Of a stretch of DNA of 11,349 nt, positions 1 to 9,693 are shown piece by piece; positions within the stretch are counted from its first letter, which is position 1; each line of letters starts with the position of its first letter. The DNA is from Sphingobacteriales bacterium (lineage in GTDB: Bacteria; Bacteroidota; Bacteroidia; Chitinophagales; Chitinophagaceae): positions 1-11,349 of the forward strand of contig JAHEZF010000031.1 of assembly GCA_023251215.1 (NCBI GenBank), given 5' to 3'. Made by a program: the position numbers and the translations under genes. A model generated the notes under the pieces. The model had not been told where the DNA came from and searched no databases. It was given only the letters and a program-made list of their open reading frames with translations.

Positions 1-1605
1 GATCCAAACCGGAATTTCTTTTTTGCTGAACGGATGAATGCAATAAGAGCCGGTGAAAACTCCGGTGATCTTTTTTTCCGCCATTCTTTCTCTTTCACTG
101 CGGCTTTTTACATACTCCAAATATTTTTCAACTTCTGCACGATATTCTTCCGAAGTTATCTGATGCACCAGCTCATGTTCCGGTGCGATAACCATGAAGT
201 CAACGCCGAAGATCGTGTCGGGGCGGGTAGTATAAACTTTTAGCTTTAAAGCCTCCTCTAAATCTCCCCCTAAGGGGGAGACTTGCGAGGACCCTGATTT
301 TTTTTGTACAGATAACAAATTGGAAAGTTGTTCGGTTATCTTATTTACAACCGCCGTCACATCTTTTCTTACTTCTTCGTTTGTAAATCGCAATTCAGTA
401 AATCCATTTTCTTTCAAAAACCTGGTTCTTTCTTTATCATATTGTTGAACTTCAGGGTCAGTATGATAGCCACCATCTACTTCTATCGTTGCTAATTTAT
501 CAAGGCAAGCAAAGTCAACTATATAAGAGCCAATAATATGCTGACGCCTGATATGAAAACCGGTTTTATCTGCTCTTAATAATTGCCACAGTATCCCTTC
601 TTCATGTGTTGGGTTTTTCCTTTTTTCTTCAGCAAGACGTTTTGTTAACTCGTACAAAGAAGGTTCAGCCGTTTCATATCGCGGAGTCGTATTCTCCCCC
701 TTAGGGGGAGTTAGAGGAGGCTTTTTTATTTCAAACTCAATCTCTGCCCCGCTGCTTTTCCCTATCCAGTTTGTCTGCATCTCCTTCATGCTCTCGCTGA
801 AGTCAACTTTTTCCAATCCTTCGAGCAAACGATCAGCATATTCAGTTATCCGTAAATACCATTGACGCAGTTTCTTTTTTACAACAGGATAACCTCCTCT
901 TTCACTCACACCATTGATCACTTCATCATTTGCCAACACGGTTCCCAATGCTTCGCACCAGTTCACTTCGCCATAGCCACACCAGGCGAGACGGTATTGC
1001 ATTAAAATATCCTGCTTTGTTTTTTCATCAAAACCTTTCCATTCATTAGCAGTGAAATTGAGAATTGAATATTGAGTGTTCGGTATTGAGTGTTGTTTAT
1101 TTCCTTCTTTCTCAAAAGAAGCAATTAATGTTTCTATCCTTTCAGCTTTATTGGTTTTTCTGTCATACCAGCTATGAAACAATTGCAGGAATATCCACTG
1201 TGTCCATTTATAATACTTCGGGTCGCAGGTCCTTATTTCACGGTCCCAGTCGAAACTGAACCCGATATTATCTAATTGCTTCCTGAAATTATTGATATTA
1301 TTCTCAGTAGAAATAGCCGGATGAATGCCATGATCAATGGCATATTGTTCGGCGGGCAAACCAAATGCATCGTACCCCATCGGGTGCAAAACATTAAAAC
1401 CTTTCAGTCGTTTATAACGGCTGTAAATATCAGAAGCAATATAACCCAGGGGATGACCAACATGCAAACCGGCGCCACTGGGATATGGAAACATATCCAG
1501 CACATAGCATTTCGGTTTGGAAAAATCATTTTCAACTTTGTACAGTTTTGATTTGTCCCATTGCTGCTGCCATTTTTTTTCTATAGTTCTGAAGTCGTAC
1601 TCCAT
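1..1605 (-). CDS. leuS: Leucyl-tRNA synthetase, N-terminal part (continues beyond window start), with an in-frame nuclease insertion
   Basis: Class Ia aminoacyl-tRNA synthetase that charges tRNA-Leu in the cytoplasm. Reading the minus strand from ATG at 1605-1603 gives 535 codons without a stop to the window edge. The start [16 protein letters not shown] is typical of the family. The ATP-binding HIGH motif appears as HVGH at residues 48-51. Further conserved segments are [39 protein letters not shown], and [13 protein letters not shown] just before the CP1 editing domain. The threonine-rich editing motif TTRPDTIFG is at residues 459-467 and PVWI ends the visible part. Two stretches are foreign to the family as I know it: residues about 295-452 (a DUF559 nuclease unit) and about 168-181 (a repeat-like loop). 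KMSKS and the anticodon-binding domains lie outside the window. A gap of 171 bases separates it from divergent ftsX. Identity is certain; function of the interrupted enzyme is inferred from the unbroken frame and intact motifs. Confidence 0.96.
251..280 (+). repeat. Left terminal inverted repeat of the DUF559 element
   Basis: GCCTCCTCTAA, then AT, then the near-palindrome CTCCCCCTAAGGGGGAG (264-280; 8-base arms around one central base). It is the inverted partner of 694-721, from which it differs only by the extra AT. Read in the leuS direction it encodes [10 protein letters not shown], with no stop. Confidence 0.9.
694..721 (-). repeat. Right terminal inverted repeat of the DUF559 element
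   Basis: The near-palindrome CTCCCCCTTAGGGGGAG (694-710) is followed by TTAGAGGAGGC. Its reverse complement matches 251-280 apart from a two-base gap. Identity may continue a further three A/T bases on each side. In the leuS frame it reads PPLTPPKGE. The self-complementary core plus outer inverted repeat resembles a REP-type hairpin. Confidence 0.9.
1057..1095 (-). repeat. ATTGAG-type short repeat translated inside leuS
   Basis: On the plus strand the stretch is built of degenerate units of about 7-10 bases: ATTGAG, AATTGAA, TATTGAGTGTT, GTATTGAGTGTT. TATTGAGTGTT occurs twice, 14 bases apart. In the leuS frame it reads [14 protein letters not shown], placed between IASFEKEGN and FTANEWKGF, a variable connective region in Bacteroidota LeuS. 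I recall similar NTQYSI-type peptides from repeats in this phylum, but that is memory and unverified here. Confidence 0.55.
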
Positions 1606-2715: not shown

Positions 2716-2952
2716 ATGAGCGATACTAAAACAACTCCTTCGATCTTTACAAAAGATAATTATATGTGGATGCTTGGCGGATTGGTGGTAATGGCCATTG
2801 GCATGTTCCTGCTTGCCGGCGGCAAAAGCCATGATCCGGCTATTTTCAATAAAAATGCAGTGTACAGTACTACCCGCATTACCATTGCGCCTTTGCTGAT
2901 AATGGCCGGCCTGGTGATCGAGATTTTTGCCATTTTCAGAAAACCAAAATAA
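2716..2952 (+). CDS. DUF3098 family small membrane protein
   Basis: A 78-residue protein with a short polar N-terminus (MSDTKTTPSIFTKDNY) and two hydrophobic segments, about 18-36 (with the glycine-rich MLGGLVVMAIGMFLLAGG) and about 54-73, followed by a basic RKPK tail. This architecture and the segment FTKDNYMWMLGG match DUF3098, an uncharacterised Bacteroidota family. The sequence between the helices (KSHDPAIFNKNAVYSTTRI) is also typical. It lies between ftsX and uppP, which suggests an envelope or division-related role, but no function is known to me. Expression probably comes from the ftsX promoter. The ATG at 2716 follows an AAAAACAAAAGAA leader. Confidence 0.85.
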   Translation: MSDTKTTPSIFTKDNYMWMLGGLVVMAIGMFLLAGGKSHDPAIFNKNAVYSTTRITIAPLLIMAGLVIEIFAIFRKPK

Positions 2953-2954
2953 AA

Positions 2955-3071
2955 TAATGTGCTGATGTGCCAATGTGCTAATTTGCCAATTACTTCTCAT
3001 ATATCAATTCTGTCTTGTTCAATGCACATTTTTTTATTTGCATATTTTCAAATTTGCACATTAGCACATTA
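2955..3071. repeat. Imperfect inverted repeat (36-base arms, 45-base loop) between DUF3098 and uppP
   Basis: The left arm 2955-2990 begins TAATGTGCTGATGTGCC. The reverse complement of the right arm 3036-3071 begins TAATGTGCTAATGTGCA. By hand alignment 29 of 36 positions agree without gaps. The arms are themselves made of TGTGCTAAT-like units, and a further AATGCACAT lies in the loop. The unit fills nearly the whole gap and ends four bases before the uppP ATG, so it covers the uppP ribosome-binding region. It looks like a miniature inverted-repeat element; no coding capacity is present. Confidence 0.7.
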
Positions 3072-3075
3072 AATT

Positions 3076-3915
3076 ATGGGAATCATCGAAGCAATCATTC
3101 TTGGTTTCGTTGAAGGTCTGACAGAGTTTTTGCCTGTTTCTTCTACCGGCCACATGATCATCACCAGTTCATTGCTGGGAATTCAGCGGGATGAATTCAC
3201 CAAATTGTTTGAAATATCCATACAGTTCGGAGCCATCCTGGCTGTGGTAATATTATATGGCAGAAAATTTTTCGTCCCGAAAGCTTTCGGGATCCGCCAC
3301 TGGCAGTTTTATGGCAAACTGATAATAGGAGTCATTCCTGCTTTAGTATTAGGTTATCTCTTTTCAGACAAGATTGATAAGCTACTGGAAAGTCCGACCA
3401 CGGTGGCCATCACCATGCTGGCTGGTGGTTTTATTTTATTGTTCATTGATGCTGTTTTCAAAAAACCAAAGATCGAATCGGATGACCAGGTAAGTTTTGG
3501 CAATGCTTTTATGGTGGGCCTGTGGCAAACCATTGCCATGGTTCCGGGAGTCAGCCGTAGCGCTGCTTCCATTATTGGCGGTATGCAACAGAAGTTTACA
3601 CGGTATCTTGCCGCAGAGTTTTCATTTTTCCTGGCTGTGCCTACTATGTTTGCCGCAACCGTTTATTCATTGTTTGTAAAAAAATGGGGCGCCGGAGAAG
3701 TGGCGAGAAAGGGCTACCAGATCATCATGGAAACATCGCAAAATACCATTGCATTCATTGCGGGTAATGTGGTAGCTTTTGTTGTAGCTATGTTTGCCAT
3801 CAGGTTTTTCATCAATTACCTGAAAGTTTATGGCTTTAAAGTATTTGGCGTTTATCGCATAATTGCCGGTATTATTTTATTCTCCCTTTTGCTTACCAAA
3901 GTAATTGAAGGATAG
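3076..3915 (+). CDS. uppP: Undecaprenyl-diphosphate phosphatase (UppP/BacA family)
   Basis: An integral inner-membrane phosphatase that dephosphorylates undecaprenyl diphosphate, recycling the lipid carrier for peptidoglycan and other envelope polymers and giving bacitracin tolerance. At 279 residues it is normal length. The first conserved block, GFVEGLTEFLPVSSTGHMII (10-29), carries the catalytic Glu13/Glu17 and His26. The second, PGVSRSAASIIGGM (157-170), carries Arg161. Multiple hydrophobic helices cover the rest, and the C-terminal KVFGVYRIIAGIIL is typical. Residues about 67-74 (VPKAFGIR) are encoded by an 18-base perfect palindrome and its flank, and fall in a loop where relatives, as I recall them, have fewer residues. 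The start at 3076 gives the usual MGIIEAIILGFVEGLTEFLP N-terminus; the ribosome site would lie inside the upstream inverted repeat. In many relatives truB follows; here a lipoprotein gene does. Confidence 0.95.
   Translation: MGIIEAIILGFVEGLTEFLPVSSTGHMIITSSLLGIQRDEFTKLFEISIQFGAILAVVILYGRKFFVPKAFGIRHWQFYGKLIIGVIPALVLGYLFSDKIDKLLESPTTVAITMLAGGFILLFIDAVFKKPKIESDDQVSFGNAFMVGLWQTIAMVPGVSRSAASIIGGMQQKFTRYLAAEFSFFLAVPTMFAATVYSLFVKKWGAGEVARKGYQIIMETSQNTIAFIAGNVVAFVVAMFAIRFFINYLKVYGFKVFGVYRIIAGIILFSLLLTKVIEG
3275..3292. repeat. 18-base perfect palindrome inside uppP
   Basis: TCCCGAAAGCTTTCGGGA is fully self-complementary and is translated in the uppP frame as part of FVPKAFGIRH, in a loop between two hydrophobic segments. 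It shares TCCCGA...TCGGGA with the intergenic palindromes at 6774-6791 and 9602-9619. Confidence 0.85.
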
Positions 3916-6759: not shown

Positions 6760-6773
6760 AACCCCTCCTTCGG

Positions 6774-6791
6774 TCCCGATAGCTATCGGGA
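6774..6791. repeat. 18-base perfect palindrome between convergent MBL and DUF3108 genes
   Basis: TCCCGATAGCTATCGGGA lies in the 44-base gap between two convergent stop codons, flanked by CCTCCTTCGG on the left and TGGCGAGG on the right. It could form a bidirectional terminator hairpin, but T-runs are poor, so termination is uncertain. It belongs to the same family as 3275-3292 and 9602-9619. Confidence 0.85.
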
Positions 6792-6803
6792 TGGCGAGGC
6801 TGT

Positions 6804-9187: not shown

Positions 9188-9577
9188 TTACAGGTTTGCC
9201 AGAATCTTTTCCTGTGCTTTTTTCAAACTCTCTGCTGATGCTTGTGATTTGTGTTGTGTAAAGTTTAAATCGTTGGATGAATTGATGGGAACAAGATGCA
9301 AATGTGCATGGGGAACTTCCAGGCCAATTACACTTATCCCGCAACGGTTGCATTTAAAAGTTTTCTCAATCGCTTTTGCTATGGGCTGTGCAAATACCAG
9401 CATTTCTTTTAAATATTCCTGCGGCAGATCGAACAGGTTGTCCACTTCGGTTTTGGGAACTATCAAAACATGACCCTCCCGTAAAGGGAAAATGTCGAGA
9501 AAAGCAAAGAACTTTTCGTCCTCTGCAATTTTATAGCTGGGTATATCACCTGCTATGATTTTTGAAAATATTGTCAT
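9188..9577 (-). CDS. HIT family protein (histidine triad nucleotide-binding hydrolase)
   Basis: A 129-residue HIT-superfamily protein of the HinT-like branch, which hydrolyses purine nucleoside phosphoramidates or related nucleotide conjugates in the cytoplasm. The N-terminus TIFSKIIAGDIPSYKIAED and the segment AFLDIFPLREGHVLIVPK (25-42) are standard. The active-site triad HAHLHL is at His90, His92 and His94. The start at 9577 was preferred over ATG 9658, because the extra 27 residues have no family counterpart and are partly encoded by a palindrome (9602-9619). The gene lies downstream of greA on the same strand, a pairing I recall as common in Bacteroidota, though a hairpin lies between them. 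Cys76 and Cys79 form a CNRC pair that may bind metal in some HIT proteins, but the other ligands are not evident here. Confidence 0.93.
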   Translation of the reverse strand: MTIFSKIIAGDIPSYKIAEDEKFFAFLDIFPLREGHVLIVPKTEVDNLFDLPQEYLKEMLVFAQPIAKAIEKTFKCNRCGISVIGLEVPHAHLHLVPINSSNDLNFTQHKSQASAESLKKAQEKILANL

Positions 9578-9601
9578 ACCACTAAAGATTTTTGATTTTA
9601 G

Positions 9602-9619
9602 TCCCGATAACCATCGGGA
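9602..9619. repeat. Palindrome TCCCGAT-ATCGGGA upstream of the HIT gene
   Basis: TCCCGATAACCATCGGGA has seven-base arms around a four-base centre. It lies in the leader of the HIT gene, 25 bases before its ATG, so it could form a hairpin in that mRNA. It is the third member of the family seen at 3275-3292 and 6774-6791, with a diverged centre. Confidence 0.8.
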
Positions 9620-9693
9620 TAAGATTGCAGATTTAATATATCGCAGTCTCTGATTCACCCCGCAAATTTACAATTGGTAAGGAGTAATTGTAA

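Follow-up and report, generated by a model that had tools for sequence, protein, structure and literature searches.

An in-frame DUF559 nuclease in a Bacteroidota leucyl-tRNA synthetase: A probable homing-type element which persists without splicing

The DNA studied here, which we call the window, is a stretch of 11,349 nt from contig JAHEZF010000031.1 of a Sphingobacteriales bacterium (assembly GCA_023251215.1). It begins with a leuS gene, coding for leucyl-tRNA synthetase (LeuS), which carries a nuclease as an insert. This gene occupies 1..1605 on the minus strand, as do all the leuS features described below, and forms an unbroken open reading frame (ORF) of 535 codons, whose 3' part is missing at the end of the contig. 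The truncated protein scores 433.6 bits with TIGR00396, under the cut-off of 548.4, and the longer copy P0001 (contig C262) passes with 723.6 bits. The order of Pfam domains in the window LeuS is tRNA-synt_1, then DUF559, then the LeuRS editing domain. The DUF559 nuclease domain (PF04480) is found at 325..642, residues 322-427, with an E of 3.9e-29 and 101.2 bits against a cut-off of 20.6. The original prediction, made from the letters of the window, of a complete DUF559 nuclease in frame within LeuS is thus borne out.

The inserted element had been placed at 251-721 (157 codons), the ends of its repeats give somewhat wider limits: 248..724, which makes 477 nt or 159 codons, a multiple of three and open in the host frame. 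The region 244-726, which includes the edge residues (161 codons), has neither Met codons, as predicted, nor stops in the sense frame, compared with 5-15 stops in each of the other frames. In the coding sense, the element starts with the terminal repeat AAAGCCTCCTCTAACTCCCCCTAAGGGGGAGA (693..724, inner hairpin 694-710) and ends with the terminal repeat TCTCCCCCTTAGGGGGAGATTTAGAGGAGGCTTT (248..281, inner hairpin 264-280), both of them translated. Perfect 17 nt palindromes, CTCCCCCTNAGGGGGAG, flank the nuclease at 264-280 and 694-710, and two sites of this type, with up to three mismatches, are found in none of 200 shuffled sequences. An outer inverted repeat pairs 248-268 with 704-724 and is 90% complementary.

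The host motif which precedes the insert is at 727..771 (residues 279-293), where the alignment with Thermus LeuRS reaches residue 237 of the latter. The motif which follows is TTRPDTIFG (205..231, residues 459-467), the start of the CP1 editing site. In the Thermus LeuRS chain 2v0c the insertion point falls between residues 237 and 241, just ahead of the threonine-rich start of the editing site. The ten host residues downstream of the insert have a mean conservation of 0.97 in 54 LeuS sequences without insert, and both HVGH and TTRPDTIFG, said to be untouched, are intact in the window LeuS. A short repeat-like stretch at about 1060-1100, in the N-terminal part of the protein, may be another small in-frame repeat insertion.

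The active-site region of the nuclease (463..516) contains D364 (514-516), E375 (481-483), D377 (475-477) and H381 (463-465), which would be catalytic by analogy with the Vsr/EDxHD family. These residues had been reported as intact, and the active site is nearly invariant among relatives: The corresponding positions of our profile A1, which was built from twelve embedded domains, are D49, E60, D62 and H66, and of 304 embedded domains 303, 304, 302 and 301, respectively, keep them. This set is free of identical copies, and most of it consists of matches ranked by similarity, favouring conserved ones. The ratio of nonsynonymous to synonymous substitution rates (dN/dS) has a median of about 0.15 in the inserts and is 0.07 in the host flanks (15 unsaturated pairs of 154, not independent). 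These ratios indicate that the nuclease is under purifying selection. When the PDB is searched with profile A1, two relatives are found: The endonuclease-like protein 3hrl has an E of 2.9e-31, and 3r3p, a 'mobile intron protein' which is the homing endonuclease I-Bth0305I, has an E of 7.2e-6. The profile thus detects homology with the catalytic domain of this enzyme. In another study, a DUF559 gene is assigned to the EDxHD homing family (PMC9403480).

Similar insertions are widespread. In its own genome, a 72% complete assembly, all five DUF559 copies found are inside housekeeping-type genes: leuS twice, metH, a cinA-like gene and icmF, the last one confirmed by NCBIfam with 1738.6 bits. Profile A1 was run on 294 genomes of the family, with matches in 128. 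Among the matches listed, 87 reach 140 bits, and all of them belong to open frames, 282-1327 aa long; at 130-140 bits the same holds for 6 of 9. Of the 54 listed below 130 bits, 39 have frames of only 115-213 aa and 15 have longer frames. At the phylum level (395 genomes), 33 of the matches listed reach 140 bits, and 31 of these belong to long frames, five of the 33 being those of the own genome. One branch of DUF559 appears to be nearly confined to an embedded lifestyle. The claim is limited to this branch, and not made for DUF559 as a whole, because our profiles were built mainly from embedded copies.

We kept 80 named loci from at least 580 relatives: 59 are embedded, 17 are stand-alone, 3 touch the edge of a contig and one is interrupted by a stop. 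Their record titles read as Bacteroidota. Isolates with embedded copies include Dysgonomonas, Daejeonella, Psychroflexus salis, Winogradskyella litoriviva, Flavobacterium difficile, Tamlana nanhaiensis and Marivirga aurantiaca. The combination of LeuS and PF04480, for which the original prediction suggested a search, is a recurrent architecture: 106 of the 109 matches of one region search are LeuS according to their Pfam columns, with source names which include Ferruginibacter, Ginsengibacter and Hanamia and point to Chitinophagaceae as the family of the window. A second protein-database search gave 1640 proteins of about 700-2240 aa among 1757 candidates (sizes from the best 120 of the 1640).

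About 25 host gene families are found among the matches listed, a count made partly by eye and drawing partly on the best 120 of 1640 and the best 120 of 342 matches. Five of them are tRNA synthetases (LeuS, IleS, ValS, MetG and GltX). The others are MetH, IcmF, Acs, CinA, AroC, RecG, RecQ, RecJ, UvrA, Gmk, WecB, CarB, Cca, adenine deaminase, DegT, sugar epimerase, SpoIID, Uup, hydantoinase and HydF. The hosts were named from their motifs, inspected by eye, or from Pfam accession numbers. Two copies are present in 43 of the 231 proteins scanned, and three in one MetH (P0112). Methionine synthase P0206, which also has two DUF559 copies, is named Flavobacterium columnare, so a named species is affected. 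In Hoylesella buccalis (L245), an RNase H-like gene has a DUF559 unit at its N-terminus, with a stop inside the nuclease.

These fusions might serve the host, giving the cell a nuclease function in defence, repair or regulation as part of its housekeeping proteins. Such a role would fit the strong purifying selection on the nuclease and the fact that a single protein, the MetH P0112, can have as many as three copies. Nevertheless, the inserts are patchy even between sister genomes, the nuclease is lost in some cases, leaving scars, and PADLOC yields nothing beyond a 15.5-bit match to DpdF. The spread of unrelated hosts and the scars make a host function less likely, and we regard it as quite improbable. 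A function tied to the editing domain of LeuS, which the original prediction also considered, is disfavoured, since related nucleases occupy about 25 unrelated host genes.

Alternatively, the insert might be taken out before the enzyme becomes active, as an intron, an intein or by ribosomal bypass: There are hairpins at both ends, and EDxHD-type enzymes have been described from introns. On the other hand, no Rfam intron family is found over 1-1700, where the one match is far under its gathering score. Pfam finds no intein domain in the window protein, in agreement with the predicted lack of intein features, and the ends of the element are translated hairpins. The 87 strongest family matches listed are all in unbroken frames, the window nuclease has no Met of its own, and two copies occur in one LeuS in G012 and in G145. 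Removal is very improbable in our opinion. Each genome with a LeuS match has a single one, except the own genome, which has two, and G103, which has two partial ones. With one LeuS match in nearly every genome, we may presume that the fused enzyme is functional.

The second leuS of the own assembly (G000, contig C262, locus L020, 2-2398) has an N-terminus 75% identical to that of the window. Its insert occupies the same site but is a different one, and what looks by eye like an IS110-like transposase ORF adjoins the gene. It groups with the leuS of G060, so it may represent bin contamination or transfer. An assembly artefact or a frameshift was considered for the fused gene and rejected: Open frames with the same architecture are found in P0007, P0013 and P0033, whose longest contigs measure 4.8, 5.1 and 6.7 Mb, which makes an artefact unlikely. 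A phage or plasmid origin was discarded as well, only weak matches being found in 3 phage and 44 plasmid records, with all the best places below 60% identity.

The history of the insert was compared with that of its host in a set of 108 LeuS sequences. It includes 27 of 30 initial loci (longer versions were taken of the other three), 80 further loci and, from the own genome, also the second leuS, and covers 107 of the 141 genomes with a LeuS match. The length of the site occupied in the window (site A) is 30-40 residues in 86 sequences, 163-251 in 18 and 45-74 in 4; the picking of the 80 extra loci favours long frames, so 18/108 should not be read as a frequency. Relatives with an empty site and clean edges do exist, as the original prediction would expect of a foreign unit: The LeuS with the most similar N-terminus (G024, 84% identical) has an empty 31-residue site. 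On a host tree built without the inserts, the 18 filled sites need 14 changes, at least 10 of them forced by starred branches. Shuffled labels need 16.9 changes on average, and 10 of 500 shuffles are as low as the observed value. A second site, B, is filled in 6 of 104 sequences, which requires 5 changes.

Similar hosts may have very different inserts. For example, G146 and G029 are 87% identical in the host and 50% in the insert, and for G000b and G060 these values are 83% and 37%. The insert of the window is 39% identical to the farthest LeuS inserts. In the four closest host pairs, approximately unbiased (AU) tests reject the joining of the inserts in three (p 2.95e-5, 1.94e-7 and 1.95e-4). 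The LeuS set is thus characterized by patchy, horizontal acquisition at a fixed site, one of the four closest pairs looking vertical. These results support the view of a foreign selfish element proposed from the window: The insert has a patchy distribution, and its history disagrees with that of the host, the homing step itself being what we infer. If the insert were instead an old LeuS domain, vertically inherited and often lost, the clustering of nuclease labels by site, described below, and the fact that several families of the phylum have it at the same site would be easily understood, but not the 14 changes among 108 LeuS nor the clades which mix hosts. It is contradicted by the AU tests for those three pairs, and we give this explanation hardly any credit.

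The nucleases sort by host site. In a tree of 259 domains, 33 label changes are needed, against 151.6 after shuffling. Some clades combine different hosts: LeuS and Acs inserts share one (100/96), LeuS and AroC inserts share another (99/96). The best identities between nucleases in different genes are 77% for LeuS and Acs, 75% for adenine deaminase and MetG, and 74% for CinA and MetG. Taken together, the sorting by site and the similarity across genes point to nuclease lineages which are bound to their sites and jump occasionally between unrelated genes. We also looked for co-conversion of host flanks in one RecJ pair (L242/L247), where three nuclease windows are 0.90-0.94 identical and the flanking windows about 0.8 (0.57-0.93): There is no clear tract in this pair, and it is not used as evidence.

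Inverted ends are a common feature of these elements. For the 49 copies compared together with their flanking DNA, the median inverted-repeat score is 15, against 8.5 for ends taken from different elements and 7.5 for shuffled sequences. A score of at least 15 is reached by 51% of the copies, 10% of the other pairs and 0% of the shuffled sequences: Inverted ends exceed chance. The usual form of an end is CCTCACCCCTAACCCCTCTCC-loop-GGAGAGGGG, of which the window has a CCTCCTCTAACTCCCCC variant. The pattern GGGGAGAYTTRGRGGRGGC is unspecific at three mismatches (21 sites, 19 for the reversed control), and no count of solo ends was drawn from it. In G140, site A of LeuS contains both ends without the nuclease; this is the one clear scar among the four sites of 45-74 residues. 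The own genome has scars at sites N1 and N2 of MetH and at site B of MetG; nucleases are found elsewhere at these same sites (L095 and L108 for MetH, P0119/P0122 for MetG). Single element ends are also present in frame in other genes of the own genome (L009, L013 and L015, contigs C198 and C147). These frames include NuoB- and NuoD-like ones, identified by eye, with the peptides SSKVSPAGGDLEGA and SSEVSPGGGDLEE. In the NuoD-like frame the end is directly ahead of VGPQHPATHG.

These hairpin ends lead to the main rival explanation, transposition similar to that of repetitive extragenic palindromic (REP) sequences or miniature inverted-repeat transposable elements (MITEs). The hairpins would define the mobile unit, the nuclease would act on hairpins or single strands and not on a target in the host gene, and the repeated use of a site would reflect loops which tolerate insertions; the model would be the transposases which act on REPs. 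Most copies have hairpin ends, and inverted ends also appear in 15 stand-alone or other copies (median score 12.5). In addition, other genes of this genome have end units without nuclease in their reading frames, the element moves between genes, and REPs inside genes and Rickettsia palindromic elements (RPEs) are known (PMC3733652, PMC10969869). Nevertheless, the same loop is hit repeatedly beside conserved motifs and nuclease lineages sort by site, and the solo units examined in the own genome are mostly one end and not whole small elements. We consider a REP-like route unlikely, but it deserves more attention than the other alternatives.

The insertion points which we have read precede conserved motifs: TTRPDT in LeuS, the related TTTPWT in IleS and TTRPET in ValS, WFDAPIG in MetG, the P-loops of IcmF and Gmk, TSGSTGKPKG in Acs, GDVHDIG in MetH and MTATPIPRT in RecG. 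We have ranked 13 length-variable loops in the 54 LeuS without insert by their best conserved 10-residue stretch starting within a given spacing downstream. Sites A and B rank first and second in conservation with a spacing of up to 3, 5 or 8 residues.

What we observe is a horizontal, site-recurrent insertion which preserves its nuclease and has no detectable splicing machinery. It is probably a homing-type selfish element which survives without splicing because the host enzyme tolerates it as a domain, as the sequence comparisons suggest. The unit consists of hairpin-bearing terminal repeats around an EDxHD/Vsr-like nuclease frame, with neither start nor stop of its own. It occupies a loop just upstream of a strongly conserved host motif and would be translated as an extra domain of LeuS. 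The nuclease would cut the uninterrupted allele near the conserved flank, and repair of the break would copy the element from an inserted allele arriving by gene transfer. This cutting of empty alleles, followed by repair from the inserted one, would be the simplest account. Rare ectopic events might reach new host sites, and later loss of the nuclease would leave a scar: a peptide coded by the hairpins. Residence in a single-copy essential gene would protect the element, because only in-frame, tolerable deletions can remove it.

Several results weigh against a homing-type element. A homing enzyme would be expected to be longer than this domain of about 110 residues, and EDxHD enzymes are described with added DNA-binding regions (PMC3943268). 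When the PDB is searched with a single sequence, 3hrl is the only plausible relative found, and 3r3p is missed. Repeats are weak or absent in 16 of the 49 copies (score below 12), including L022, L097 and L104 in icmF and L019 and L110 in metH. With zero spacing, site B still ranks first among the 13 loops but site A only sixth, and the target-flank result comes from one host gene, LeuS. The tree of 259 domains is poorly resolved, with 33 of 256 branches starred, and clustering by host site also fits long vertical residence. Host and insert identities correlate weakly (rho 0.21, 43 of 1000 shuffles being as high). In the fourth of the closest host pairs, G145/G027, the inserts form a clade and look vertical, and one MetG pair has similar synonymous divergence (dS) in insert (0.61) and host (0.55).

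A homing-type element of this kind may be compared with several known systems. Inteins with an embedded homing endonuclease are found in frame in conserved genes, at several sites per gene, with a patchy spread and decay to nuclease-less forms, and our element resembles them in all these respects. The window element differs from inteins in having hairpin terminal repeats and no splicing domain: The host protein would keep the insert. With EDxHD homing endonucleases such as I-Bth0305I, which have a Vsr-like fold, it shares a sequence relation detected by profile and insertion beside strongly conserved host motifs. Homing enzymes favour such conserved sites (PMC3943268). On the other hand, an EDxHD enzyme in a split-intein setting is reportedly the subject of Dassa 2009, and the window nuclease forms part of the host protein as an internal domain which is not spliced out. 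RPEs are also palindromic and in frame in unrelated metabolic genes; the descriptions consulted give a size of about 150 bp and mention no nuclease. The window element has 477 nt and a full conserved nuclease, so it is not a short palindromic insert of that type. REPs and their associated tyrosine transposases (RAYTs) involve hairpin repeats, some of them inside genes, and repair genes and tRNA synthetases are among REP targets (PMC3733652), but the REP enzyme is a tyrosine transposase coded by its own gene. Finally, stand-alone DUF559 genes of the PRK09767 type have the same domain (the window scores 70.7 bits with NF007294, under the cut-off of 218) in an ORF of their own, as in the 39 short frames among the weaker family matches listed.

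Other repeats are found elsewhere in the window. A 20-nt palindrome of the GTCCCGATAGCTATCGGGAT type has three copies: The one at 3274-3293 is in frame within an uppP-like gene (FFVPKAFGIRHWQFYG), the one at 6773-6792 directly follows an ORF, and the one at 9601-9620 is near the 5' end of ORF 9188-9658. A 42-nt inverted repeat, 79% complementary, is located between two genes at 2949-3077.

In summary, we go beyond the single-locus view of the original prediction: There is a widespread class of insertions, which affects several genes per genome, leaves scars and jumps from gene to gene. The general view is that a homing nuclease survives in an essential gene only with the help of an intron or intein, and none of the nearest systems compared above is known to combine unspliced in-frame life with a nuclease. 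We found no description of the embedded DUF559 arrangement in the titles and abstract starts of the open-licence PMC literature, which is not proof of its absence. The element may be a variant of homing elements, and it may also form a separate class of its own. We propose tentatively, with some reserve, that this is a new class of mobile element: a hairpin-ended nuclease frame which would need neither splicing nor promoter nor start codon, live as a permanent translated domain of essential proteins, reach other copies of its host gene by cutting the target, enter new genes on rarer occasions, and choose loops before catalytic motifs. If so, many domain insertions in Bacteroidota proteins might go back to this source, a major one which has stayed hidden. 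The nuclease seemingly persists unspliced in LeuS, MetH, IleS, RecG and other enzymes of many genera. If this is true, selfish elements would directly shape protein architecture, annotated enzymes would carry hidden nucleases, and the loops beside active sites which naturally tolerate inserts would provide a catalogue for protein engineering.
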